In this document: positions 7,484 to 23,852 of the stretch, piece by piece
Numbering within the stretch: the stretch's first letter is position 1
Layout: every line of letters begins with the position of its first letter
Assembly: GCF_003130405.1 (NCBI RefSeq)
Contig: NZ_QEAS01000006.1
Coordinates: forward strand, 196,218 to 236,529
Direction: 5' to 3'
Length of the DNA: 40,312 bases
Source of the DNA: Pararcticibacter amylolyticus
GTDB lineage: Bacteria > Bacteroidota > Bacteroidia > Sphingobacteriales > Sphingobacteriaceae
Position numbers and translations under genes: made by a program
Notes under the pieces: model-generated
What the model was told of the DNA's origin: nothing
Databases searched by the model: none
Seen by the model: only the letters and a program-made list of their open reading frames with translations

Positions 7484-7610
7484 ATAATTATTTTAACGTT
7501 TTTTCCGTTGACAACATAAATAAAGGAATCACTTCAATAAATAAACGCCCATAACAGACCTCTGAGCAGAGTTATCTTAAAGAATTAAAAAATAATCATA
7601 TACTTGCCAG

Positions 7611-7623
7611 TGGGTGCCACCCA
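7611..7623. promoter_or_regulatory. 13-base palindrome upstream of the WbsX-like gene
   Basis: TGGGTGCCACCCA is a perfect odd palindrome in the 164-base gap before 7648. It lies between a TTG (7604-7606) and a weak TATATTCA element starting at 7625, which is where an operator would block transcription. The arms are too close together for an RNA hairpin, so a dimeric repressor site is the more natural reading. No regulator is identifiable. Confidence 0.3.
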
Positions 7624-7647
7624 TTATATTCATGCAAAAGTAACAAG

Positions 7648-8763
7648 ATGAAGGAAACAGTTGAGAACCATTCAATAAAAGCAATTGCGATTTATCTTCC
7701 ACAATTCCACCCAATCCCCGAGAATGACATGTGGTGGGGAAAGGGGTTTACTGAATGGACCAACGTCACCAGATCCAAACCTAAATTTAAAGGACATTAT
7801 CAACCCCATCTGCCTGCAGACTTAGGGTTTTACGACTTAAGATTACTTGAAACACATATAGACCAAGCTAACCTTGCAAAGCAATATGGCATTCATGGCT
7901 TCTGCTATTATCACTATTGGTTTAACGGCAAACTATTACTAGAGCAACCTTTGCATCTTGTACTCAAAAATAAGGAGATTGATATGCCATTCTGTCTTTG
8001 TTGGGCAAATGAAAATTGGACAAGGCGATGGGATGGCTTTGATAATCAAGTCCTCCAGCCTCAACAATATAGCATTGAAGATGACAAAGAACATATTCAA
8101 TATCTTATCAACTTTTTCCAGGACGAAAGATATATCAAAATAGATGGCAAACCCGTATTTTTAATGTATCGATCTGAATCTCACCCAGATATAAACACAG
8201 CAGTAGACATTTGGAGGGAGCAAGCTAAACTTGCCGGATTTCCAGATCTCTTTCTGATACGAGTGGAAAATTTCGAAAAAAATATTGATCCAAAACTGCA
8301 TGGATTTGATGCGGGATTAGAGTTTGCTCCTGATTTTTTTGACTTAGGATCAAGTGCAACATATATCAATCCCACCAAGGATAAATTGGAAAAGTTTCTT
8401 CACAAAAAAAAGATAGTGAGAAATGAGTACTTTGACAACACCGTTTATCTTTATTCTGCATTAATGGAAACGACCCTTGCAAAAGAAGAAAGGACGTATA
8501 AGTATTTTCGATCAGTATGTCCTTCATGGGATAATTCTGCCCGGCGTCAAAGTGGCGCGACCATTTATAAAGATTCTACTCCCGAATTATTTGAAACCTG
8601 GCTCAAAATAGCTGCGCAAATGACAGTCTCAACCTTTCGTGAGTCTGAACGCTTTATTTTCATAAATGCCTGGAACGAATGGGGAGAAGGATGTCATTTG
8701 GAACCGGATCAGAAATGGGGGCATGCATACCTGCAGGCAGTGAAAAATGTTCTAAATAGCTGA
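7648..8763 (+). CDS. WbsX-like glycan protein (GH99-like fold)
   Basis: A 371-residue protein that begins A-I-A-I-Y-L-P-Q-F-H-P-I-P-E-N-D and continues W-W-G-K-G-F-T-E-W-T-N-V, with C-Y-Y-H-Y-W-F-N-G, W-A-N-E-N-W-T-R-R-W-D and C-terminal N-A-W-N-E-W-G-E-G-C-H-L-E-P. This is the Glyco_tran_WbsX family, a GH99-like (beta/alpha)8 domain found in O-antigen and capsule loci. Residues W-N-E-W-G-E-G would line the active site if it is a hydrolase. There is no signal peptide, so it would act in the cytoplasm. Whether family members make or cleave a glycosidic bond is unsettled. Its last 12 bases overlap the convergent GT4 gene. Confidence 0.9.
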   Translation: MKETVENHSIKAIAIYLPQFHPIPENDMWWGKGFTEWTNVTRSKPKFKGHYQPHLPADLGFYDLRLLETHIDQANLAKQYGIHGFCYYHYWFNGKLLLEQPLHLVLKNKEIDMPFCLCWANENWTRRWDGFDNQVLQPQQYSIEDDKEHIQYLINFFQDERYIKIDGKPVFLMYRSESHPDINTAVDIWREQAKLAGFPDLFLIRVENFEKNIDPKLHGFDAGLEFAPDFFDLGSSATYINPTKDKLEKFLHKKKIVRNEYFDNTVYLYSALMETTLAKEERTYKYFRSVCPSWDNSARRQSGATIYKDSTPELFETWLKIAAQMTVSTFRESERFIFINAWNEWGEGCHLEPDQKWGHAYLQAVKNVLNS

Positions 8764-9921
8764 TTCTATTATCTTCTTTATCTCATAACCTGCTCTATTT
8801 ACATCAAAACGTTGTACGATCTTTTGAGCTTGTTCTCCCATGACTTTGAGCTTTGTTTTATCATGATATAAAGAGAGCATCTCTTTTGCCATCTGCCGCG
8901 TATCACCATAAGGAAGTACTATCCCTCCCCCCTCGCATATTAGTTCCGGCATACCTCCTGCCTGGTCGAAACATAGTATCGTTTTTCCCAAGGAAGCGGC
9001 TTCAAGGCATACTAAAGGAAACGGATCCTCTCTTGACATTAAAGCAAATGCATCAAAGATCTGATAATAATTATGAGGATCGTGTCTATGACCAGTAAAA
9101 ATCACATTATTTTCAAGGCTTAAGCACTTTAATTCATATTCCAGCTGAAGCTGATATTCCTTCTCATAAGATCCTCCAACCCAAATAAAACGAATCTTAC
9201 TAGTCGGATCCAGCTTTTTTATTTGATATGCTAGATGTAAAAAAAGGTCAGTTCCTTTTCGCCAGTAACAAGTTCCAGCTGCTCCGACTATAAACTCTCC
9301 GTCCTCTATTCCCAATCTTTTTTTAACAGACATTGCGTCTTCCAACACGTTATCCTGACAACGTTTTAGATCGATAAACTCATAACAAAGGCTAATTTTA
9401 TTACCAGGGATTGTAAAATTAGTAATGAGGCTCTTTTTCGTACTTTCCGACACAGCAATAAACCGATCGACATTCTGTATTATTTCCCGGTTTAAGCTAC
9501 CCGGGAAATAGTTCTTTATCGTAAACTCATTTTCATGAACATGGCAAATTACAGGACAATTAAAAAGCTGTTTTAATTCAACAATTAAATCATTGGCGGC
9601 AATTGTATTAAAATAAATCAAATCATAACTTCTTCCCCACAATGCTTTAAAATTGGATTCCTTGCGTTTTGCAAAAAGCTTTTCTTTGATTCCAGATAGT
9701 ATTCTTTTTAGTCCTTGTTTTTCTTCTTCTTCCTTTTTTAAGATAAAGACATTACCCAATTTCACAAACTCATTTTCAAGATCACCACCGGCTTTTAGTA
9801 GAATATCAAATTTCACTATCCGATTTTCTTTAATCCACTTCAACAAGTGTAAAAGCACAATTGGTGCACCTGATCTCGACGCATCATGGGAAATAAATAG
9901 AATTTTCTTATCTGACAACAT
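8752..9921 (-). CDS. Family 4 glycosyltransferase
   Basis: A 389-residue GT-B enzyme. The N-terminus L-F-I-S-H-D-A-S-R-S-G-A-P (~7-19) is the GT4 acceptor-domain loop, H-V-H-E-N-E-F sits mid-domain, and V-G-A-A-G-T-C-Y-W-R-K-G starts the donor domain. The E-x7-E-like motif is F-P-L-V-C-L-E-A-A-S-L-G-K. The protein is the last gene of a tight minus-strand operon: only 3 bases separate it from the KpsC/KpsS-like gene upstream. In that setting it could extend the chain that receives, or is received by, the ulosonic acid residue. Its 3' end overlaps the convergent WbsX gene by 12 bases, so opposing transcription could interfere there. Confidence 0.9.
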   Translation of the reverse strand: MLSDKKILFISHDASRSGAPIVLLHLLKWIKENRIVKFDILLKAGGDLENEFVKLGNVFILKKEEEEKQGLKRILSGIKEKLFAKRKESNFKALWGRSYDLIYFNTIAANDLIVELKQLFNCPVICHVHENEFTIKNYFPGSLNREIIQNVDRFIAVSESTKKSLITNFTIPGNKISLCYEFIDLKRCQDNVLEDAMSVKKRLGIEDGEFIVGAAGTCYWRKGTDLFLHLAYQIKKLDPTSKIRFIWVGGSYEKEYQLQLEYELKCLSLENNVIFTGHRHDPHNYYQIFDAFALMSREDPFPLVCLEAASLGKTILCFDQAGGMPELICEGGGIVLPYGDTRQMAKEMLSLYHDKTKLKVMGEQAQKIVQRFDVNRAGYEIKKIIESAI

Positions 9922-9924
9922 TGA

Positions 9925-11118
9925 CTACTTGATCATTAACTTTGCAGTGATTTCACGATTTCTATCTTTTGTGGAATATAGATAATCAAGCTTTAAAAAG
10001 CCAAGAAATTGTTTAAAGCTTAAAAGCTGAAGATCTGACACATTATTATAGCAAGCAACTTTTACACACTCTGCTATTTGAGATGAAGACTCAATTTCAT
10101 AAGAACATCCCTTTTTATAAAGCAATCCGGCTCCGACATTTATAAGTGGCTTATTTTTTAATAAAGCTGAAAACTCCATCTTCGATCCAGAGCAAACGAT
10201 AACATCCGCCCACCCTATAAGCTGATCTGGATTCCCATTAACAATCCACAAATTTTTCAGAACTTTTACGTTCTCAAAATACTCGTTATGTGAAGGATGA
10301 GGTTTATAAATAACTTGAAAAGCCGAATCAGCTTCTGCAAAAGCTTTTGCCGTTTGCAAAGAAGATTCATGAAATGGAAGAAGCCCATGTCTTTCCCTGT
10401 GCTCTCTCGGAAAAGCACCGGAATCGACCTCATCTATCCCTAACAATAAGACTTTAAATACTCCTTCTCTATCATTATCCACCCCTATCGGAAAAACAAC
10501 ATTATTTTGATTATAAAGACTAAGGCTGGAATTCTTTAACGTATCAAATATCTTCTCGCCTTCATAAAAATATCTTTGCATATCCTCGTCTGACTTTCCT
10601 TTAAGAGGATTACAATTGAATATTTGGGATGAAGCAAGGGTCCCCTTTTCATCAAGAATAAATGTATTGGGTAGAAAGCCCCATTCTATAGCAGATGTCG
10701 ATATCCCTAAAACTCTGGCTATATCGAAAGCTATACCAAACTGACAACAATAGGGATTCCAGCAAATAAACAAATCTGGTTCAATAGTGCTGAAAAGAGC
10801 AATAGCCTCCTTCGAAAAGATGTTATATCTCTCATTTGAATCTCTATAATCCGTACCCAACCATTTCGTCAAACGGGATACCCATTTCTTCCTGTCAACA
10901 AAGAGTTTGACTATTAATTGATAAACGAAAATGCGAACTCTGGCTTTTTTATAATAAGGAACGATATAAAAATCAGAAAGACTTTCATATTTATTCTGAC
11001 TCCAGAAGTAAACCTTGCAACCTTGTTGCTGCAGATCAAGCAATAAGTTTTTCATGCCATTCTGTTGTTCCTTGTTTAAAACGGGAATACAAGAAACAAT
11101 AATCCTTTTATCTCTCAT
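9925..11118 (-). CDS. KpsC/KpsS-like capsule transferase (Kdo-transferase-like)
   Basis: A 397-residue protein of the capsule-synthesis family. The central E-W-G-F-L-P-N-T-F-I-L-D-E-K-G (~143-157) matches the family pattern E-x-G-F-x-P-x-x-x-x-x-D-x-x-G. Y-K-P-H-P-S-H and V-C-S-G-S-K-M-E-F-S-A-L-L follow, with I-N-V-G-A-G-L-L-Y-K-K-G near the end. Characterised KpsC and KpsS are retaining beta-Kdo transferases that use CMP-Kdo on a lipid acceptor at the inner membrane. Only one such domain is present here, as in KpsS. It directly follows a CMP-sugar synthetase and a phosphatase in the same operon (6-base gap), so it is the likely user of the CMP-ulosonic acid they produce. Exact linkage is unknown. 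Confidence 0.78.
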   Translation of the reverse strand: MRDKRIIVSCIPVLNKEQQNGMKNLLLDLQQQGCKVYFWSQNKYESLSDFYIVPYYKKARVRIFVYQLIVKLFVDRKKWVSRLTKWLGTDYRDSNERYNIFSKEAIALFSTIEPDLFICWNPYCCQFGIAFDIARVLGISTSAIEWGFLPNTFILDEKGTLASSQIFNCNPLKGKSDEDMQRYFYEGEKIFDTLKNSSLSLYNQNNVVFPIGVDNDREGVFKVLLLGIDEVDSGAFPREHRERHGLLPFHESSLQTAKAFAEADSAFQVIYKPHPSHNEYFENVKVLKNLWIVNGNPDQLIGWADVIVCSGSKMEFSALLKNKPLINVGAGLLYKKGCSYEIESSSQIAECVKVACYNNVSDLQLLSFKQFLGFLKLDYLYSTKDRNREITAKLMIK

Positions 11119-11124
11119 TGTCCT

Positions 11125-11757
11125 TCAAGCATGATCTTGTATTTCATTTATACTCTTAATACGTCTGATGTCTTGTATCTCTTTTTCTGAAACAAATCTG
11201 TATGCAAGGAAACCAATTCCGTTCGCTTTTGCTGCATCATAGTCGTTAATCGAATCCCCAATTAATACAGTCTCTTCCTTCTGATAATGATACTGATCAA
11301 GTATTTCTCCTACCAGAGTAATTTTCGGTACAGGAGATCCTTGAATCGTTTTAAAATAACCAGCTAGACCTAGTTCAGCACATAAATATCTCAGTTCATT
11401 ACCATCAGAACCTGACACAATATGCATCTCGTAATTACGATAATTATCCCTGATAAATGCAACAGCGTCTTCAATTATAAGTGCCCTGTTCACCAATTCC
11501 TTCTTCATCAGCACAGAGAATTTCTCTGCAAGCTGGTTCACTTCTTCTTCGCTGATTTCCTTTTGCAGGACTTCTTCATAAAAATAACGGATCTTGTGAT
11601 ACCTCGACAGCCCTCCATTGTTCCTGTGATAACGCAGGATCGTATCTAGCTGACCAGCAGAATAACCGGCAAAAAGCATCTCAAACCCACGTTCCCTGAC
11701 TCCATTTGAATCCAGGATCACCCCATCAAAATCGAATAAAATATTCTTAATACTCAT
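11125..11757 (-). CDS. HAD-family phosphatase
   Basis: A 210-residue HAD hydrolase with motif I D-F-D-G-V-I-L-D-S at 9-17 (the first Asp is the nucleophile), motif II in V-S-G-S-D, a lysine in P-V-P-K-I and motif IV G-D-S-I-N-D-Y-D-A-A-K. A helical cap sits between motifs I and II, as in subfamily I, so it is not the small tetrameric KdsC type. It starts one base from the stop of the CMP-synthetase gene. The likely job is to remove a phosphate from a sugar-acid phosphate before CMP activation, as KdsC or NeuB-pathway phosphatases do. This role is inferred from context; the fold is clear. Confidence 0.85.
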   Translation of the reverse strand: MSIKNILFDFDGVILDSNGVRERGFEMLFAGYSAGQLDTILRYHRNNGGLSRYHKIRYFYEEVLQKEISEEEVNQLAEKFSVLMKKELVNRALIIEDAVAFIRDNYRNYEMHIVSGSDGNELRYLCAELGLAGYFKTIQGSPVPKITLVGEILDQYHYQKEETVLIGDSINDYDAAKANGIGFLAYRFVSEKEIQDIRRIKSINEIQDHA

Positions 11758-11758
11758 C

Positions 11759-12490
11759 TCAACCTAATCTAAGAGCTTCCTCTACTTTACTGACATCTTC
11801 AGGAACATCAACCGCAAGTGTATTGCCTGCTGTATAAACCATTTTGACAGGGATTTTTAAGTCCAGGAATCTCAATATTTCAATATCTTCAAACGCTTCG
11901 AATTCTGCTTTCCCTCCCCTTTCGCCAAATGCTCTCAATTGATCGTAGTTGAAAGCATAAATACATACCTGCTTCAGGTATACAGGTCGCACTGCTCCAG
12001 GAGCCTTAATTCCCGGTATGGGTAACCGTGACATATAGATAAGGTCATTTCCTGAATTTACCAGAACTTTCGGGATATTTACACTTGCTGGGTCCTCACT
12101 ATCAGCCAGTGCACACATCCCATTAATTACATAACCGGTAAATTCTTTCTTAACTGAACAAATCCGCCGGATATCTTTGGGATCAACCATGGGTTCATCA
12201 CCCTGGATATTGATATATATATCAGCTTCCCTTTTCCGGGCAACCTCCCACAAGCGATCTGTACCGGTAGGATGATCATCCGATGTAAGCAGATACTGAA
12301 ACCCCGCTTTTTCCACAACGTCCGCAATCCGCTGATCATCGGTAGCAATAATCACATTCTCAGCGCCCAGAGCAAGCGCAGCTTTTTCTGCAACGTGAAT
12401 AACCATTGCTTTACCATTCAGCTCTACCAGCGGCTTGCCAGGATATCTTGAAGACCTGTAACGGGCCGGAATAACTCCTAATACTTTCAT
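11759..12490 (-). CDS. kdsB: 3-deoxy-manno-octulosonate cytidylyltransferase-like enzyme
   Basis: A 243-residue nucleotidyltransferase matching KdsB in length and motifs. It has V-I-P-A-R-Y-R-S-S-R-Y-P-G-K-P-L at 6-21, V-I-I-A-T-D-D-Q-R-I, H-P-T-G-T-D-R and I-N-I-Q-G-D-E-P, which bind CTP, Mg and the sugar acid. KdsB joins CTP and Kdo to give CMP-Kdo and pyrophosphate. Because a second, lipid A-dedicated kdsB is expected elsewhere in the genome, this copy may serve capsule-like glycan or a Kdo relative. It overlaps the upstream aldolase by four bases (ATGA), so the two proteins are made together. The substrate could be an analogue of Kdo; the family name is firm, the exact sugar is not. Confidence 0.85.
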   Translation of the reverse strand: MKVLGVIPARYRSSRYPGKPLVELNGKAMVIHVAEKAALALGAENVIIATDDQRIADVVEKAGFQYLLTSDDHPTGTDRLWEVARKREADIYINIQGDEPMVDPKDIRRICSVKKEFTGYVINGMCALADSEDPASVNIPKVLVNSGNDLIYMSRLPIPGIKAPGAVRPVYLKQVCIYAFNYDQLRAFGERGGKAEFEAFEDIEILRFLDLKIPVKMVYTAGNTLAVDVPEDVSKVEEALRLG

Positions 12491-14022
12491 ATGATATATT
12501 GATACAAAGAAAGCTGCTCCCTGATTTCATAACGGGTAGCAGTCAATGCGGCAAAAGTACTGAAGTGCTTTGCTGCTTCATTAAACAAATAATTGTTTTC
12601 GTTAACAAGATCCTGCTCTTTTACAGAGAGCGACTGGTTCGGATACCCGTCGTATCCCAGCAAAAACACCTCCACGGCTTTCAAAAGTATTGCTGTTTGC
12701 AGCGCCACTGCTGTATGAGAGTCTGCGTACTTTGTACTAAAGCTCACATCTTCAAGCTCGAAAGACTGTTCAATTAACCCCGAGGGCACAAAAGTTCCCA
12801 TTTTCCTCGGATAAGGCGGCAGTACACAAATCCCGTCTATTCCCTCTGCAGCACTAAATACACTTTCAAGCCGTTGCCCTTCGTTTCCCACAATACAGTA
12901 ATATTGTTTATTATTTACCCCTTTGAAAACCGCAGCATTCTTCGCACTTGCATGAATAACAACTATTTCCGGATCCTTCTCCACAAACAAACGGATTGCT
13001 TCTGCATGTTCGTTGACTGAAGGACCGCCCCCTACTATAATCACTTTTTCGCATAAAGCAGGTTGCAAAACAGGCAGCTTCAAATTATCTTTTTCACCTC
13101 TCTTTTGATTTTGGAGAGCCCTTACTATACTGTTAACGGAGTAATAACGCTTGCTTACCCAATCCATTACATCTTTTTGCGGAAGAGAATTAGCTCCCGA
13201 AACCATATAAGGAAGGTTAGTCCCCCAGCCATAATCCTCCTTCAACTTCTCAAATCTTGCTACAATATTTCCTAACTTATCGAAATCCGTTTCAAGTCCG
13301 TTCTTCGCAGCGAGATAGGTGAGGAGCAATTCGGTTCTCAGATTGCCGGCCCCACGTCCCATACCCGTTATTGTGGCATCAATTATCTCACATCCCGAGT
13401 CTATTGCAGTCAGGGTATTGGCCATTGCCAGCTCCAGGTTATTATGACCGTGAAAACCCAGAGGAATACTTGTGACTCCTTTACAGAGCGATACAATCAG
13501 CTTTAACTGTTCCGGGGAAACGCCTCCGTAAGAGTCAACGAGACTAATAGCATCTGCCACATCATCTCCTTTACTGAGAGTATCGAAAAGGGCGGAGTTC
13601 TCATTAAGAGAAGATATGTACATGATATTAATCCCAACTTTAAACCCTTTTTCCCTGATTATTTCCGCCAGGGCAATAGCATTTGAAAATCGTACCGGAG
13701 CAACCGCTATGCGTATCATATCGACAAGACCTCTGCAGGGATCAAGAAGCGAATCGAGCTCGTTCAGGCTGCAATCTTTTTCATTCAGCATGACAGCGAG
13801 AGTTTTCGTTGGCGCCAGTTCTCTTACTTTCCGTAGTAATAAAACAGGTGAATAAAAATACTGTCCGTAGTACCCTTTCTGAGGGCGACTCCTATACCCG
13901 AGTTCAACAATATCGACAGGCAACCGCTCCATCGTTTCAAAATATGGTTTTGCCAAATCATCCGGGAAGTCCCATTGAGTATAATATCCTCCGTCACGAA
14001 ACGTACAATCCAGTATTTGCAT
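12487..14022 (-). CDS. DRE-TIM aldolase fused to a DUF115-like domain
   Basis: A two-domain protein of 511 residues from the ATG at 14022; an open frame reaches a GTG at 14058, but family members normally start right before I-L-D-C-T. Residues ~3-270 form an HMGL-like barrel: L-D-C-T-F-R-D-G-G-Y carries the catalytic Arg-Asp pair, and G-F-H-G-H-N-N-L-E supplies the metal-binding His-x-His, followed by G-M-G-R-G-A-G-N. Relatives (4-hydroxy-2-oxovalerate aldolase, DmpG/BphI) join or split pyruvate and an aldehyde. From ~330 a Rossmann-like domain starts with V-I-I-V-G-G-G-P-S-V and ends near L-L-G-Y-D-G-Y; this resembles DUF115/MptE-like proteins. As first gene of the five-gene operon it may build the carbon skeleton of a ulosonic acid. 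Product and domain-two role are inferred. Confidence 0.75.
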   Translation of the reverse strand: MQILDCTFRDGGYYTQWDFPDDLAKPYFETMERLPVDIVELGYRSRPQKGYYGQYFYSPVLLLRKVRELAPTKTLAVMLNEKDCSLNELDSLLDPCRGLVDMIRIAVAPVRFSNAIALAEIIREKGFKVGINIMYISSLNENSALFDTLSKGDDVADAISLVDSYGGVSPEQLKLIVSLCKGVTSIPLGFHGHNNLELAMANTLTAIDSGCEIIDATITGMGRGAGNLRTELLLTYLAAKNGLETDFDKLGNIVARFEKLKEDYGWGTNLPYMVSGANSLPQKDVMDWVSKRYYSVNSIVRALQNQKRGEKDNLKLPVLQPALCEKVIIVGGGPSVNEHAEAIRLFVEKDPEIVVIHASAKNAAVFKGVNNKQYYCIVGNEGQRLESVFSAAEGIDGICVLPPYPRKMGTFVPSGLIEQSFELEDVSFSTKYADSHTAVALQTAILLKAVEVFLLGYDGYPNQSLSVKEQDLVNENNYLFNEAAKHFSTFAALTATRYEIREQLSLYQYII

Positions 14023-14123
14023 AGCAGAAGGTTTAATGCAGATGCCGGAAATCTGCACAGAGTTTTCACATAAAACTTAGAGCACGAATATACGATAAAG
14101 TTTAGCAAAACAGTACAGGCACC

Positions 14124-15314
14124 TTATTGCTTACCGCTTACAAGTGTCCTGAATATATTCTGATAGTTATTCTTCATTACGTCCTCCTCTTTAAACGAGA
14201 CAAGATTTATATGCATTTCATTAAAACGGTTAAAGTCATATACAATGTTGATAGTCCCATCCGGACTTTGCGCAAGATCGGGATAAGAAACACCCAGTTT
14301 AACATCGATCAGCATACTGTACTTCCAGCTTTTTGCCTCGTCATCAGAAAGAAATATTTTCATATTACTTCTTTCAACACTATTGCTTAGAACGAGTGCA
14401 AGTTTACCAGACTTCAACCTTCCGAGAAAAAAGCGACTACTTGCCGTCTTGCCTACTGCTGTAAATTTTTTCACTTTATCCCAGTTCCGCAGATCCTTGC
14501 TTTTTGTAAAATATATCCCGTCAATTCCCCTGATCATTACCAGGTAACTCTTATCTTTTAGCTGAATGACCTGATGCTCATCATATAAACGCAGGTTATC
14601 ATCGAATTTTATGCTGCTTACTTTAGTAAACCCTCTTGAATTGTTATACTGATCGTTATAGGTCGATTTATAAACAAAGATTCCGCTATTGACCGTTCCT
14701 CCCATCTTCCATACGGCAATAGGATAAAGCAGGGAGGTCTTCGAGATATCCTCCGACGGTCGGTTCATCATTACTCCATCAGCAAGACGCCTGGGCATGG
14801 TGAAAGTAAAACGGTTCTCAAACCCTATTTTAGTAAACCAGACACCGCCCTTGCCGTCCCATAACGAATTCCGGGATTTCGACCACGATAAAAACACATT
14901 GCCATATTTATCTGTCCACAGTGCGGGATCAAAAAAACGAATCTCCGGTTTAGCTGGAATTACTATTAGGGCATTATGATTCCAGGTAACGCCTTTATCC
15001 GTACTAACTGAAACGGTTATATAATTACCCGGCCCCTCTCCCTTAGATCCCGTATACCATGCCACAAAGATAACCCCTTGTTGTGATACCACCACAGAGG
15101 GAATTCCCTGCCAATCCCGTTTCGTGAAGGCTTCATCGTTATTTCCGTCCAGCAGGATCTTCCCCTCAAAAGTTTCCGGAAGCTCAACCACCAGATTCGA
15201 TTTGCGGGGTGGAATAGCTGATTCTGAACCAGGCCCAATAAGGTTCTCTTCATCCTTCTTGCAGCAAATCAATAATACCAATAAGAAAAGTCCCAGTAAG
15301 TTTATCTTCTTCAA
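14124..15314 (-). CDS. Sialidase-fold (BNR/Asp-box) lipoprotein
   Basis: A lipoprotein of ~396 residues. From the TTG at 15314 the N-terminus reads as K-K-I-N-L-L-G-L-F-L-L-V-L-L-I-C-C-K-K-D, a typical Bacteroidetes lipoprotein signal; a longer TTG start at 15350 is possible. Two Asp boxes are visible: S-T-D-K-G-V-T-W, and a weaker S-D-D-E-A-K-S-W near the C-terminus, both marks of a six-bladed sialidase propeller. The first catalytic arginine motif of sialidases (R-I-P) appears as G-I-P, so ordinary neuraminidase activity is doubtful. It would sit on the outer membrane or periplasmic face. It lies 101 bases upstream of the ulosonic acid operon on the same strand, which suggests it handles the finished glycan. 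Confidence 0.72.
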   Translation of the reverse strand: MKKINLLGLFLLVLLICCKKDEENLIGPGSESAIPPRKSNLVVELPETFEGKILLDGNNDEAFTKRDWQGIPSVVVSQQGVIFVAWYTGSKGEGPGNYITVSVSTDKGVTWNHNALIVIPAKPEIRFFDPALWTDKYGNVFLSWSKSRNSLWDGKGGVWFTKIGFENRFTFTMPRRLADGVMMNRPSEDISKTSLLYPIAVWKMGGTVNSGIFVYKSTYNDQYNNSRGFTKVSSIKFDDNLRLYDEHQVIQLKDKSYLVMIRGIDGIYFTKSKDLRNWDKVKKFTAVGKTASSRFFLGRLKSGKLALVLSNSVERSNMKIFLSDDEAKSWKYSMLIDVKLGVSYPDLAQSPDGTINIVYDFNRFNEMHINLVSFKEEDVMKNNYQNIFRTLVSGKQ

Positions 15315-15350
15315 TATGAAACGACCGTTAAGTAGTATCCCCCTTTGCAA

Positions 15351-15699: not shown

Positions 15700-16650
15700 A
15701 TGAAAAAACTGAAAAAATTTATTCATCTGTTAAAAGAATATAATAACGACAGGAAGCTATGCAAAGGGTCTCCTGTCAAGCTATTCAATTTTTGTAACAT
15801 GAAAAGACCGGAAGAGGTCTGGTTTTATAATTTCATTCATAATGAGTTTTCAGGCAAGCTGACTCCTAAGAAAGAGATTGCCGTATTCTCTGTTTATGGT
15901 ACCCGCGCTAAGATCAAATTAAACAGAAGCCCGGTAAAGATTTTTTTCACCAGTGAGAATATAGATAACTATTACGAATATAGAGACCATTGCCTCAACG
16001 ATGTCGACTTGGTTTTAGGGTTTGAAAACTTGCACAACCAGAATTACCTTCGCTTCCCTTTATGGATCTTATATTTTATACCACAATCGTGTAATCACGG
16101 GGATATCAGGAAGGCTGTTTATAATATGTCTCATTTCAATTATGAGAGCACGCCTTTCCGCAAATTCTGCTCTATGGTAAGTAGTCATGATGGAGACGGT
16201 ATCAGACCTGCCATCTATCATAGTCTCAGCGAAATCGAAAAGGTCGATAGCGGTGGGGCTTATTTAAACAACACAAGCGATCTCAAAGAGCTATGTAATG
16301 ACGACAAACGCTTGTTCCTCACCAGATATAAATTTAATATTTGTCCCGAAAACTCGGATGGAGACGGTTATGTCACCGAAAAACTCTTCGAAGCGATTAA
16401 CTCAGGCTGCATTCCCATATATATGGGAAGTAACAATAATCCTGAACCTGCTGTAATTAACAAAGATGCAGTTCTCTTCTATTCAGGTCCCGACAGCCTG
16501 GAAGCTTTAAAAAAACAGGTAGCCGAACTTCATTCAAATGAAAAACTCTACAGAGAATTTATCTCGCAGGAGAGGTTCCTGCCTACTGCAACGGAATATG
16601 TTCTGGATACAATAAGCGAACTGAAGAAACGGATTAAGGAATTGCTTTAA
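15700..16650 (+). CDS. Family 10 fucosyltransferase (alpha-1,3/4-FucT-like)
   Basis: A 316-residue GT-B protein. The decisive motif is Y-K-F-N-I-C-P-E-N-S then G-Y-V-T-E-K-L-F-E-A-I-N-S-G-C-I-P-I-Y-M-G (~208-240), the conserved GDP-fucose-binding block of GT10, shared with Helicobacter FucT and eukaryotic FucTs. Upstream, K-I-F-F-T-S-E-N matches the family's first short motif. Such enzymes move fucose from GDP-fucose to the 3- or 4-OH of GlcNAc, or other acceptors. A basic amphipathic C-terminal helix (L-K-K-R-I-K-E-L-L) could anchor it to the membrane. It converges with the GT11-like gene, so two separate fucosylation steps are encoded side by side. No GDP-fucose synthesis genes lie in the window. 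Confidence 0.9.
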   Translation: MKKLKKFIHLLKEYNNDRKLCKGSPVKLFNFCNMKRPEEVWFYNFIHNEFSGKLTPKKEIAVFSVYGTRAKIKLNRSPVKIFFTSENIDNYYEYRDHCLNDVDLVLGFENLHNQNYLRFPLWILYFIPQSCNHGDIRKAVYNMSHFNYESTPFRKFCSMVSSHDGDGIRPAIYHSLSEIEKVDSGGAYLNNTSDLKELCNDDKRLFLTRYKFNICPENSDGDGYVTEKLFEAINSGCIPIYMGSNNNPEPAVINKDAVLFYSGPDSLEALKKQVAELHSNEKLYREFISQERFLPTATEYVLDTISELKKRIKELL

Positions 16651-16709
16651 ATACAGGCAATTGATATTGCTTTGAGTACTATTTTCTGAAAATTCCTCAA
16701 AAAAGCGAC

Positions 16710-17594
16710 TTAAGATAGAGGGGTAAAGCGAGTTATATTCCGTTCATCTATAGTGCTGTCAGCACTTTCTATATGAAACAATGGCACCTTCCCAAAAAAA
16801 GCAGCCCATCCCGAATAGGTGCTTGGAGGCCCGATTATGTAATCGCAGCTTGCCAGGCTATAAAGGTCGATGATAAAATGCCTCTCCTCCCATTTGGCAT
16901 TCAAGCCACTGAAGTTTTTCAAAGGTACTTTTTCGTTTGATGCAATGAAAAAATTGCAGACCTTTCCATTCTTTTTGTAAAACGCCTCAATACTCTTCAT
17001 GTTCTTCAAATACACTTCATCCTCGTAATACCAGCTCCCATAATTAAAATCTTTATAGTCACCTCTTCGGATATGTACGCCTATCAGGATATCTGCGTTT
17101 TTTCTTGATTCTTCAATTTGCTTCCTGACCAGCTCCCGGTAATGGTTCTTCAGTGTAAAGATATTTCTTATTTCATTTGCATACAAACCAAAGCTTTCCT
17201 CGTCCCTGTATAACCATCCATTCGTAATCAAAACTTTATGACACGCCTTGGCGGTAAACAGCGGATCCCGCATATTAAAAAAAGGATCTTCAAGACTATT
17301 TTTTGAAAGGATATGAAATTCCCTGAAGAAAACAGAACTGACCCTCTTTCCTCTTTTTTCAAGGGATCTGATCAGTTGCTGAATTTTCCTGTAGATGAAA
17401 AGAAGTCCCACAGGATAATCCAGCTGGATACGCCCCTCTTCGAAATCAGGGTCTCCAAATTCAAAGAACTCCCTGTACTCCTGAAAAAATGGATAAACCA
17501 GCTTATATCCAAAGGCTTTGCTGTTTGCTATAAAATGGGAGAAATGAATTAAACGGTTAGCAAGCTGGCCAGCCCTATAATTTACAATAACCAT
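16710..17594 (-). CDS. Family 11-like fucosyltransferase (alpha-1,2-FucT fold)
   Basis: A 294-residue protein. I-G-V-H-I-R-R-G-D-Y-K-D-F (~168-180) is the H-x-R-R-x-D motif that binds GDP-fucose in alpha-1,2- and alpha-1,6-fucosyltransferases. It is followed by W-Y-Y-E-D-E-V-Y, F-F-I-A-S-N-E and D-L-Y-S-L-A-S-C-D-Y-I-I-G-P-P-S-T-Y-S, matching GT11 motifs. The N-terminal glycine-rich loop is partly changed to Y-R-A-G-Q-L-A-N-R. It is a soluble or peripheral enzyme, with no signal peptide. The gene stands alone on the minus strand, divergent from the following GT2. GT11 activity is likely; a related GDP-sugar transferase is possible. Confidence 0.83.
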   Translation of the reverse strand: MVIVNYRAGQLANRLIHFSHFIANSKAFGYKLVYPFFQEYREFFEFGDPDFEEGRIQLDYPVGLLFIYRKIQQLIRSLEKRGKRVSSVFFREFHILSKNSLEDPFFNMRDPLFTAKACHKVLITNGWLYRDEESFGLYANEIRNIFTLKNHYRELVRKQIEESRKNADILIGVHIRRGDYKDFNYGSWYYEDEVYLKNMKSIEAFYKKNGKVCNFFIASNEKVPLKNFSGLNAKWEERHFIIDLYSLASCDYIIGPPSTYSGWAAFFGKVPLFHIESADSTIDERNITRFTPLS

Positions 17595-22408: not shown

Positions 22409-23491
22409 CTAAAAGTCGTTCATTACCTCAATTACCCTCTCAATCTCTTCAACTTTATGGCCATAAGATATCGGAAGGCTCAGCGTGGTCCGGTGTATCT
22501 CTTCTGAAATAGGGTAGCAGCCTTTAAACTTCCCGGCCAAAGCTACCTGCTGATGCGGGGGTACCGGGTAATGCACTTCAGTTTTGATGCCATTCTCAAG
22601 TAAGTAGGCCCGTAACCGGTCTCGTTCAGGGTGCCTCACATTGTAGATATGATAAACATCGAAATAGTCTGGATTGACCACCGGTTTCACAAAATCAGTC
22701 TTCAGCCCTTCGTGATATAAGCCTGCCAACCTCCGTTTATGGCTTGTTATTTCATCCAGCTTCTTTAGCTTAACAGAAAGAAAACCTGCCTGAACTTCAT
22801 CAAGCCGGGAATTAGTACCGATATATTCGTTCTGGTACTTTATCCTCGAGCCGTAGTTACGAAGAGCCTTTACCTTCTCATAGAGAACCTGGTCTTCCGT
22901 TGTAATCGCTCCGGCATCACCAAGAGCTCCCAGATTCTTCGTTGGATAAAAACTGAAAGCGCCGAAATCACCAAATGTACCGGTTTGTTTCCCTTTGTAC
23001 TTCGCACCATGAGATTGTGCGCAATCCTCAATCACACGAAGGTTATATTTCCGGGCTATTTCCATTACCGGATCCATATCGCAAGCTTTCCCATACAAGT
23101 GCACCACCAGTATGGCACGGGTACGATCAGTTATCTGCTCTTCTATTTTTGCCGGGTCTATATTGTAGCTTTGGATATCAGGCTCCACCAGAATGGGAAC
23201 CAGCCCATTATGGTAAACCGCAAGGATCGTAGCGATGTAGGTGTTTGACGGAACAATAACTTCGCTGCCTTCAGGAAAGTCAAAGCACCGCAAAGCGAGG
23301 ATCAGCGCATCCAGACCGGAAGCCAGCCCTGCACAATAACCTGATCCGCAAAAAGCTGCAAACTCTCTCTCAAAAGACGAAACCTTATTCCCAAGTATAA
23401 ACCAGCCGCTTTCAAGCGTATCTGAAAAGCTGTTTCTATAGCTTTCAAAAAACGGTTCATTCACCAAACGAAGGTTTTCATATTCTATCAT
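22409..23491 (-). CDS. fdtB: DegT/DnrJ/EryC1/StrS sugar aminotransferase (FdtB-like)
   Basis: A PLP enzyme of 360 residues from the ATG at 23491; ATGs at 23503 and 23539 are also in frame. Landmarks are A-S-G-L-D-A-L near the N-terminus, [20 protein letters not shown] and [14 protein letters not shown], where K is the Schiff-base lysine. The C-terminal H-Y-P-V-P-P-H-Q-Q fits enzymes that aminate C-3. With the FdtA-like ketoisomerase encoded immediately upstream and overlapping it, the pair should convert dTDP-4-keto-6-deoxyglucose to a dTDP-3-amino-3,6-dideoxyhexose (Fuc3N, FdtA/B, or Qui3N, QdtA/B). The exact epimer cannot be read from this sequence. Confidence 0.9.
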
Positions 23492-23852
23492 TGTACGGCT
23501 CATAGATATAATCTTCAGCGTCAAAAAACTCGGAAGCAAGTACCATCAATATCGCATCTTCCGTAAAATCGTACATTTTATGCCAGTCTTCGGGTTTAAG
23601 AAGCAAACATTTATCAGGTGTATCAAGTACGAAGTTCTCCTCTTTACTGTTATCATCGTTGAAAATCGTACAGCTTCCTTTTAAGCATATGGCAGCCTGA
23701 ATTGTCTTTTTATGTCTGTGTCCCCCTCTCTCCGAATCATCTACTCCATAGATATAAAATATCCTTTTGATGTCAAATGGAATAACCTTTTCAACTACTG
23801 TCAGGTTGCCCCTCTTATCAGTGAAGGTCTTGAGATTTATTAGTTGTGCCAT
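23478..23852 (-). CDS. fdtA: dTDP-4-oxo-6-deoxyhexose 3,4-ketoisomerase (FdtA/QdtA-like cupin)
   Basis: A 124-residue single cupin. [26 protein letters not shown] and [12 protein letters not shown] are the WxcM/FdtA signature; the histidines in G-H-R-H are part of the active site. The enzyme shifts the keto group of dTDP-4-keto-6-deoxyglucose from C-4 to C-3, making the substrate of the FdtB-type aminotransferase. Its C-terminus overlaps the start of that gene, so both are translated together. FdtA and QdtA differ in the C-4 epimer produced and cannot be separated here by eye. No N-acetyltransferase partner (FdtC/QdtC) is present nearby. Confidence 0.9.

Follow-up and report, generated by a model that had tools for sequence, protein, structure and literature searches.

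How does a bacterium come by a CMP-activated ulosonic acid (CMP, cytidine monophosphate) at a locus where a CMP-sugar synthetase is encoded beside a pyruvate-type aldolase? To our knowledge, the established routes to such compounds are the KdsA-type and NeuB-type condensations with phosphoenolpyruvate (PEP). The question is raised by a window of 40,312 nucleotides from the genome of Pararcticibacter amylolyticus (6.3 Mb, 97.7% complete), namely positions 196,218 to 236,529 of contig NZ_QEAS01000006.1 (C106:196218-236529 in our analysis numbering). A sequence-only reading had described five tightly packed genes for an aldolase fusion, a KdsB-like synthetase, a HAD phosphatase, a KpsC/S-like transferase and a GT4 glycosyltransferase. 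These open reading frames (ORFs) were all found in that order on the minus strand (8752-14022), with spacings of -4, +1, +6 and +3 bases, and for four of them the family was backed by Pfam matches: HMGL-like for the aldolase (6.6e-20), CTP_transf_3 for the KdsB-like protein (1.7e-35), HAD_2 for the phosphatase (1.3e-16) and Glycos_transf_1 for GT4 (4e-26). We consider it likely that this gene set synthesises, without a PEP-using synthase, a CMP-activated ulosonic acid (2-keto-3-deoxy sugar acid) other than 3-deoxy-D-manno-octulosonic acid (Kdo) and attaches it to a cell-surface glycan.

Conservation of the aldolase and CMP-synthetase pair

At least 554 relatives of the aldolase were present in the genome collection, and the 80 best were retained; counts given below refer to 79 loci including the window, some of them close kin or near-copies (71 rows under 90% identity). 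Loci L090 and L118, in which a longer overlapping ORF on the opposite strand displaced the aldolase, stand outside this count; in each of them a CMP-synthetase gene immediately follows the aldolase. There is some overlap between the nine loci L036-L044 and the others (L036/L056, L043/L120). Most of the retained relatives come from Bacteroidota, others from Balneola, Rhodohalobacter, an Akkermansiaceae metagenome-assembled genome (MAG) and a Candidatus Vogelbacteria MAG.

A CMP-synthetase was found within 3 kb on the aldolase strand in 77 of the 79 loci, being KdsB-like alone in 31, NeuA-like alone in 44 and of both kinds in 2. One of the two exceptions, L067, has only 234 bases of sequence on the downstream side; the other, L128, is genuinely without a synthetase in this range. 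For comparison, we took from the same loci genes of at least 150 amino acids lying more than 4 kb from the aldolase, and another CMP-synthetase, the module's own not being counted, was present within 3 kb of 37 out of 486; such genes measure the background of these neighbourhoods rather than that of whole genomes. Of 395 genomes sampled from the phylum, nine carried the full-length fusion, the window genome included, the others at 46-52% identity and one of them (G112) in two copies. A HAD homologue lay close by in all nine non-window loci of this sample.

The five-gene order as a whole, which the sequence-only reading had taken as the unit, turned out not to be conserved: a phmmer search (E 0.1) of the L036-L129 ORFs detected no relative of the transferase, and transferase and GT4, the genes at the end of the run, look like a separate transferase cassette. 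What recurs is the aldolase with the CMP-synthetase, joined by the HAD gene in 51/79 loci. We conclude that these two or three genes belong together and that their product is very probably a CMP-activated 2-keto-3-deoxy acid.

The aldolase domain

The N-terminal half of the fusion is an HMGL-like (DRE-TIM) domain, and the solved chain 3dxi belongs to the same family (E 3.1e-108). The nearest relatives of the window aldolase are found in Mucilaginibacter MAGs (58 and 56% identity). The full-length fusion is kept in relatives at 44-58% identity and measures 508-555 residues in 79/79 loci, so that the C-terminal domain is present in all. Arg9, Asp10, His191 and His193, the RD and HxH residues that we take to form the metal site, are invariant (79/79).

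The best curated relatives of the aldolase are 4-hydroxy-2-oxovalerate aldolases (1.9e-28), as would be expected of a catabolic 4-hydroxy-2-oxo acid (HOA) aldolase that happened to lie in the cluster. We hold this explanation to be highly improbable, because the scores remain far under the curated cut-offs (99.5 versus 229 bits and 81 versus 286 bits), the C-terminal domain accompanies the aldolase in every locus and the gene is linked to CMP-synthetases. A search of the module-locus ORFs for acetaldehyde dehydrogenase, the partner of the catabolic enzyme, gave none; the gene was seen solely next to the distant relatives L046, L047 and L049, and the catabolic candidate was rejected on this ground. 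In the alignment to the HOA aldolase 1nvm, Tyr13 occupies in 79/79 sequences the position of the histidine of RDGSH, a residue with a role in HOA aldolases. The question left by the sequence-only reading, whether the aldolase is of the ordinary catabolic kind, is thus answered in the negative.

A Maf/CstII-like domain fused to the aldolase

The C-terminal 200 residues, whose fold the sequence-only reading had not named, were predicted with confidence (predicted local distance difference test, pLDDT, 95.3). The top Foldseek match, and the sole one under 0.001, was the Maf glycosyltransferase 5mu5 (E 1.4e-5). Fold comparison gave Z scores of 14.7 for Maf (189/200 residues aligned), 12.0 for SteA, 11.0 for an MptE-type HPPK and 9.8 for CstII. 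Profile comparison related the domain to the MptE-like proteins present in some of the loci (probability 93.8, E 1.8e-7); the window domain itself falls under the cut-off of Pfam MptE-like, which 27/60 members match at 0.01. A sequence search of the PDB with the domain returned no significant match, and fold comparison alone was informative there. According to an excerpt of PMC11339370, the central domain of Maf (pfam01973) resembles CstII, and Maf enzymes can accept CMP-nonulosonic acids as well as CMP-Kdo. The modelled fold suggests that the domain probably binds a CMP-sugar, whether in the role of an additional transferase or in that of a product sensor or channel. Aldolase and fold being fused, a single protein probably makes the sugar and probably handles its CMP form.

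The KdsB-like synthetase and the identity of the sugar

The KdsB-like protein of the window scores 143 bits against the curated TIGR00466 model, under its cut-off of 155.2, and passes PRK13368 (268 versus 255) and the subfamily models PRK05450.1-5; among solved structures its best match is 1gq9, a CMP-Kdo synthetase. In a tree, 37 KdsB-like proteins (the fragment L112:19081-19521 was left out) separated from 34 canonical KdsBs with 99/96 support. The canonical set comprises 29 loci beyond the window's own genome and five from module genomes, and leans to high scores since all of its members exceed the cut-off. The histidine of the Kdo pocket was kept in 34/34 canonical enzymes and replaced in 37/37 KdsB-like ones (Gln in 34, Ala in 3), and the pocket glycine, likewise kept in 34/34, was Cys in 33/37. 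RHIGVYAYR is given as a substrate-binding motif of Pseudomonas aeruginosa KdsB in an excerpt of PMC7717453; the window protein reads KQVCIYAFN and thus does not match the pocket motif RHIGxYxYR, HxG being present in all five CMP-Kdo synthetases whose alignments were inspected. The residues for CTP (cytidine triphosphate) and metal are retained, R10, R15, K19, D98 and D228 in 37/37 and D232 in 36/37, their roles being carried over by equivalent motifs from the Aquifex enzyme as described in an excerpt of PMC3149649.

The aldolase adjoins 36 of the 37 KdsB-like genes examined; the exception, L074:16645, adjoins an HpcH aldolase. On a quick tree of the aldolase, from which four rows without a single synthetase type were omitted, 16 changes between KdsB-like and NeuA-like partners were counted, at least 11 of them forced by branches with a Shimodaira-Hasegawa-like approximate likelihood ratio (SH-aLRT) of at least 95. 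Such interchange is most easily understood if both kinds of synthetase act on the product of the aldolase. The sugar of the module is therefore probably not Kdo.

The PF05159-type transferase

The fourth gene product scores 18.1 bits against Capsule_synth PF05159, under the curated cut-off of 20, and a relative at 42% identity scores 26.6 bits, over it; comparison with a PF05159-bearing family at the profile level gave a probability of 95.9. The protein is rare, with relatives in only three other genomes of the 395 (42, 29 and 23% identity), the one in G236 being weak (23%, E 3.2e-8). The motif KPHP is common to the window protein and its three relatives. The genes of the three relatives each directly adjoin one for a NeuA-like CMP-synthetase, with a 24-base gap, an 8-base overlap and a 1-base overlap. 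In L198 the relative is followed by members of the same GT4 (29%) and WbsX (53%) families as in the window, and in L200 the transferase-synthetase pair lies approximately 2-4 kb from a flagellin gene. A PDB sequence search with the transferase alone gave no match, and one with a three-member profile returned only KpsC 6mgd at a non-significant E of 0.48. A structure model built from the single sequence was unusable (pLDDT 31.8). According to an excerpt of PMC12887879, Kdo is transferred by KpsC, KpsS and WbbB, and pseudaminic acid by KpsS1; the use of sugars of this kind is thus known from the wider PF05159-type group.

In L200, at 7489-8787, the NeuA-like CMP-synthetase beside the weak transferase relative is fused to an RraA-like domain (Pfam label Aldolase/RraA). 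We rejected this fusion as a recurrent form, as only G236 among the 395 genomes has it; the stand-alone RraA-like matches in L202, L203 and L206 have no CMP-synthetase within approximately 3.4 kb.

A proposed pathway

The following route would account for these genes. The metal-dependent DRE-TIM domain would join pyruvate with a sugar aldehyde that is probably phosphorylated. This addition would yield the ulosonic acid skeleton, for which KdsA or NeuB would draw on PEP, and the HAD protein would then remove the phosphate. The acid would be activated with CTP by the KdsB-like enzyme, elsewhere by a NeuA/PseF-like one; the family of this synthetase is well supported and its substrate is a prediction. 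Finally, the PF05159-type protein would transfer the sugar to a surface glycan, and GT4, which probably builds or extends the acceptor, would act thereafter. In other loci the candidates for the transfer step are GT29, polysialyltransferase-like, Capsule_synth and MptE-like proteins: the GT29, Capsule_synth and MptE-like families occur near the module in some loci, as judged from one or two scanned members per cluster, and a polysialyltransferase in L044. Pfam gave no match for the polysialyltransferase-cluster member L084:6081-7139 nor for L104:12327-13112, and no PDB relative of the HAD protein was found at E 0.001. We infer every chemical step of this route from protein families, linkage, conservation, the motif change and genome context, which were observed. 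In its favour, pyruvate-type aldolases of other kinds also keep company with CMP-synthetases: HpcH/HpaI in nine of the 79 module loci and, away from the fusion, in L074, L199 and L205, and the RraA-like domain of L200.

The proposal of the sequence-only reading, a new ulosonic acid pathway, thus stands in so far as its first genes are linked (77/79 versus 37/486) and the sugar is probably not Kdo, given the altered motif and relatives in whose genomes no KdsA was detected; it does not stand for the five genes as one set.

Observations that weigh against the pathway

Several observations speak against this pathway. With a tyrosine in place of the histidine after RDG, pyruvate chemistry is assigned to the aldolase by homology only, and the fold of the C-terminal domain is common to proteins that are not transferases (SteA, HPPK). 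No HAD gene lies near the aldolase in 28/79 loci, among them those of its nearest relatives, L050 and L051 (none within 3 kb). Seven of the 28 have instead a PfkB kinase gene resembling those of 2-keto-3-deoxygluconate/2-keto-3-deoxygalactonate (KDG/KDGal) kinases, so that kinase and HAD never occur together and 21 loci have neither; a simple scheme of phosphatase, then CMP does not fit these seven. In nine loci (L055, L056, L059, L061, L069, L071, L082, L083 and L092) a second aldolase, of the HpcH/HpaI type, is present in the same run and either enzyme could form the bond. Lastly, the window genome possesses KdsA (contig C2, 388 bits, cut-off 314), a canonical KdsB (contig C73, 223 bits) and NeuB (contig C1), and KdsA was found in most module genomes, 40 of the 49 chosen from the best-80 loci to include KdsB-like ones (38 over the cut-off, with G412 narrowly under it and the gene of G406 split in two). 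Among the other nine, G403, G413, G422 and G429 have KdsB over the cut-off, and their KdsA has probably just not been assembled.

With KdsA and canonical KdsB elsewhere in the window genome, a supply of Kdo is possible in principle. The KdsB-like protein could then be an extra CMP-Kdo synthetase that receives its substrate through the KdsA encoded elsewhere in the genome, with the PF05159-type protein as an ordinary Kdo transferase and the aldolase unrelated to both, a view to which its passing of PRK13368 and its likeness to 1gq9 also lend themselves. We judge it improbable in view of the replaced pocket histidine, of the interchange with NeuA-like enzymes over the same aldolase, of the aldolase beside 36/37 KdsB-like genes, and of the presence of the subfamily in genomes where KdsA was not found (G123 and G424). 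The statement of the sequence-only reading that no KdsA is present holds for the locus and fails for the genome: at E 1e-5 no KdsA-like ORF was found among the ORFs of the window between 3000 and 18000 or of loci L036-L129, kdsA thus being absent from the module loci as the sequence-only reading had suggested checking.

In the phylum sample, KdsA was not found in four of the nine module genomes (G112, G123, G054 and G203). Among the 49 genomes, a convincing KdsA was missing from nine, with weak matches in G403, G411, G413 and G423 and none in G422, G424, G429, G430 and G443; G430 and G443 probably repeat G054 and G203, and G411, which has NeuB, and G423 are possibly incomplete MAGs without KdsB over the cut-off. 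G112, assembled as one contig and 99% complete, gave no match to KdsA, KdsB or NeuB, whereas G123 and the Vogelbacteria MAG G424 gave none to KdsA or NeuB and a sole KdsB-type match, the module's own. G022 and G104, which belong to the same genus as G112 and G123, also lack a KdsB match, and the absence is therefore probably real. NeuB was not found in G112, G123, G054 or G424; G203 has two NeuB genes. With KdsA in 40/49 genomes, its absence loses force as a proof for every module genome, and the argument rests on G112, G123, G054, G203 and G424, whose lack of a detected KdsA indicates that the module is independent of this enzyme.

On contig C1 of the window genome (52270-55306), NeuB and a weak CMP-synthetase-like match lie approximately 2 kb apart; the genome may hold a separate nonulosonic acid pathway there.

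Alternative sources of the ulosonic acid skeleton

The kinase and the second aldolase also bear on another explanation, in which a CMP-ulosonic acid is indeed made and its skeleton comes from a different enzyme (HpcH/HpaI, NeuB, or dephosphorylated 2-keto-3-deoxy-6-phosphogluconate, KDPG, or 3-deoxy-D-arabino-heptulosonate 7-phosphate, DAHP), the fusion acting later, for instance as an editing aldolase equipped with a domain for binding CMP-sugars. The nine loci with HpcH/HpaI in the module are consistent with it, as are L074, L199 and L205, where this aldolase is paired with a CMP-synthetase and the fusion is not adjacent, the KDG-kinase-like gene of seven loci, NeuB in the window genome and the Maf/CstII-like character of the C-terminal domain. 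It is opposed by the 70/79 loci, the window included, in which a search confined to this HpcH/HpaI cluster found no member on the same strand up to 3 kb away, and by the genomes G112, G123, G054 and G424, in which NeuB was not found. We find it unlikely, and retain the fusion as the enzyme that would form the skeleton.

The kinase genes (L104:11267-12319, and those in L058, L100, L108, L114, L119 and L123) were scanned in two cases, both of which look KDG/KDGal-kinase-like under curated cut-offs. These loci may point to a 3-deoxy-hexulosonic acid with six carbons or to a different handling of phosphate.

Two further arrangements were noted. The 681-residue protein encoded at L048:6504-8549 has a distantly related aldolase domain, and its gene adjoins a CTP-transferase-like one; as the locus also has a gene that looks NeuB-like by eye, this is possibly a second, independent pairing of an aldolase with CMP-sugar synthesis. 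L204:1495-3663 holds a NeuA-like synthetase beside genes that by eye look YhcH-like and dehydroquinate-synthase-like, possibly another CMP-sugar pathway.

Features of the locus and its surroundings

The coordinates of the features are collected in Table 1. A GTG start listed at 14058 would lengthen the aldolase fusion to 523 residues, and GT4 shares 12 bases with the convergent WbsX gene. The surrounding region is rich in glycosyltransferases (GT2, GT4-type, GT9, GT10 and GT11), in addition to WbsX and an ABC transporter protein; a fucosyltransferase-like GT10 (plus strand) and a GT11 (minus strand) lie near the module at 15700-17594, and a DegT-type aminotransferase at 22409-23539. The BNR-repeat protein, which we take to be of the sialidase-fold type, is possibly a hydrolase cleaving the module's own sugar; homologues were observed beside the module at L042:11893-13146 (41%), L050:103-1323 and L051:7517-8740. 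A role in anti-phage defence was rejected, as PADLOC returned no match for the aldolase fusion or the transferase.

Table 1. Positions of the module and of adjoining features in the window.
Feature	Position	Strand	Description
Aldolase fusion	12487-14022	minus	511 aa from internal ATG; N-terminal DRE-TIM aldolase and C-terminal Maf/GT42-like domain
Aldolase domain	13096-14022	minus	Approximately residues 1-309; alignment to 1nvm
C-terminal domain, Maf/CstII-like fold	12490-13089	minus	Residues 312-511; predicted structure and fold comparison
KdsB-like CMP-ulosonate synthetase, separate subfamily	11759-12490	minus	Pfam, curated profiles, tree
Altered Kdo-pocket motif KQVCIYAFN	11948-11974	minus	Residues 173-181 of the KdsB-like protein
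HAD phosphatase	11125-11757	minus	Pfam HAD_2; homologue near the aldolase in 51/79 loci
KpsC/S-like (PF05159-type) transferase, predicted mover of the CMP-activated sugar	9925-11118	minus	Profiles and neighbourhoods
KPHP motif of the transferase	10294-10305	minus	Residues 272-275; window and all three relatives
GT4 glycosyltransferase, last gene of the run	8752-9921	minus	Pfam; 29% to the GT4 after the transferase in L198
WbsX family gene, convergent	7648-8763	plus	Pfam; 53% identity to L198 neighbour
BNR-repeat protein, lipoprotein-like signal (by eye)	14124-15350	minus	Pfam; directly upstream of the aldolase, same strand

Implications and comparison with known systems

The separate families are known; what would be new is the biosynthesis of a CMP-ulosonic acid with a different carbon-carbon bond-forming enzyme. 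No description of the aldolase and CMP-synthetase module was found in the open PubMed Central (PMC) literature, as covered by titles and abstract openings; subscription papers were outside this scope and may hold a prior description. If the proposal is true, many Bacteroidota make acidic surface sugars that could be mistaken for Kdo or sialic acid from a KdsB- or NeuA-like gene alone. It would also provide a function for the 3dxi family, which has a structure and none assigned in its name, explain why CMP-synthetases occur in genomes where both KdsA and NeuB are missing, and supply aldolases with which unusual 2-keto-3-deoxy sugars could be made. A broader proposition, which we find plausible without favouring it, is that CMP-synthetases have been partnered with pyruvate aldolases from three or more unrelated families (DRE-TIM, HpcH/HpaI and, in a single genome, RraA-like). 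Together they would constitute a widespread route to CMP-activated ulosonic acids, above all in Bacteroidota, that bypasses KdsA and NeuB and leads to undescribed acidic surface sugars. In its main form the aldolase would be fused to a Maf/CstII-like domain for handling the CMP-sugar.

The module resembles the Kdo pathway (KdsD, KdsA, KdsC, KdsB and Kdo transferases) in its KdsB-superfamily CMP-synthetase, HAD phosphatase and KpsC/S-like transferase. It differs from it in having a pyruvate-type aldolase at a locus without KdsA, in the altered Kdo-pocket motif, in its occurrence in genomes without detected KdsA, and in a HAD protein far under the KdsC model (21.4 versus 107 bits). With the NeuB/NeuA pathways to sialic, legionaminic and pseudaminic acids and to 2-keto-3-deoxy-nononic acid (Kdn), many module loci share a NeuA/PseF-like CMP-synthetase and some share GT29, polysialyltransferase or MptE-like proteins; the module, however, does not depend on NeuB, which the four genomes cited above appear to lack. 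The 4-hydroxy-2-oxovalerate aldolases (DRE-TIM; 1nvm) are the nearest characterised relatives of the window aldolase by profile and by the RD and HxH residues, and are set apart from it by the change from His to Tyr, the missing acetaldehyde dehydrogenase, the fused C-terminal domain and the sugar cluster. The printed sequence of 3dxi ("putative aldolase"), whose molecule name assigns no function, matches the module protein of Phocaeicola vulgatus (L104) over its N-terminal part; the 320-residue chain is without the C-terminal domain of the 510-residue gene product. The retaining transferases KpsC/KpsS, WbbB, KpsS1 and KrkA (GT107, GT99, GT118 and GT140 in an excerpt of PMC12887879) are related to the window transferase through the PF05159-type profile in one of its relatives and through profile comparison, whereas the window protein has no significant match to a solved member. 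The Maf flagellin transferases and CstII, finally, have the same fold as the C-terminal domain, which is here joined to an aldolase.

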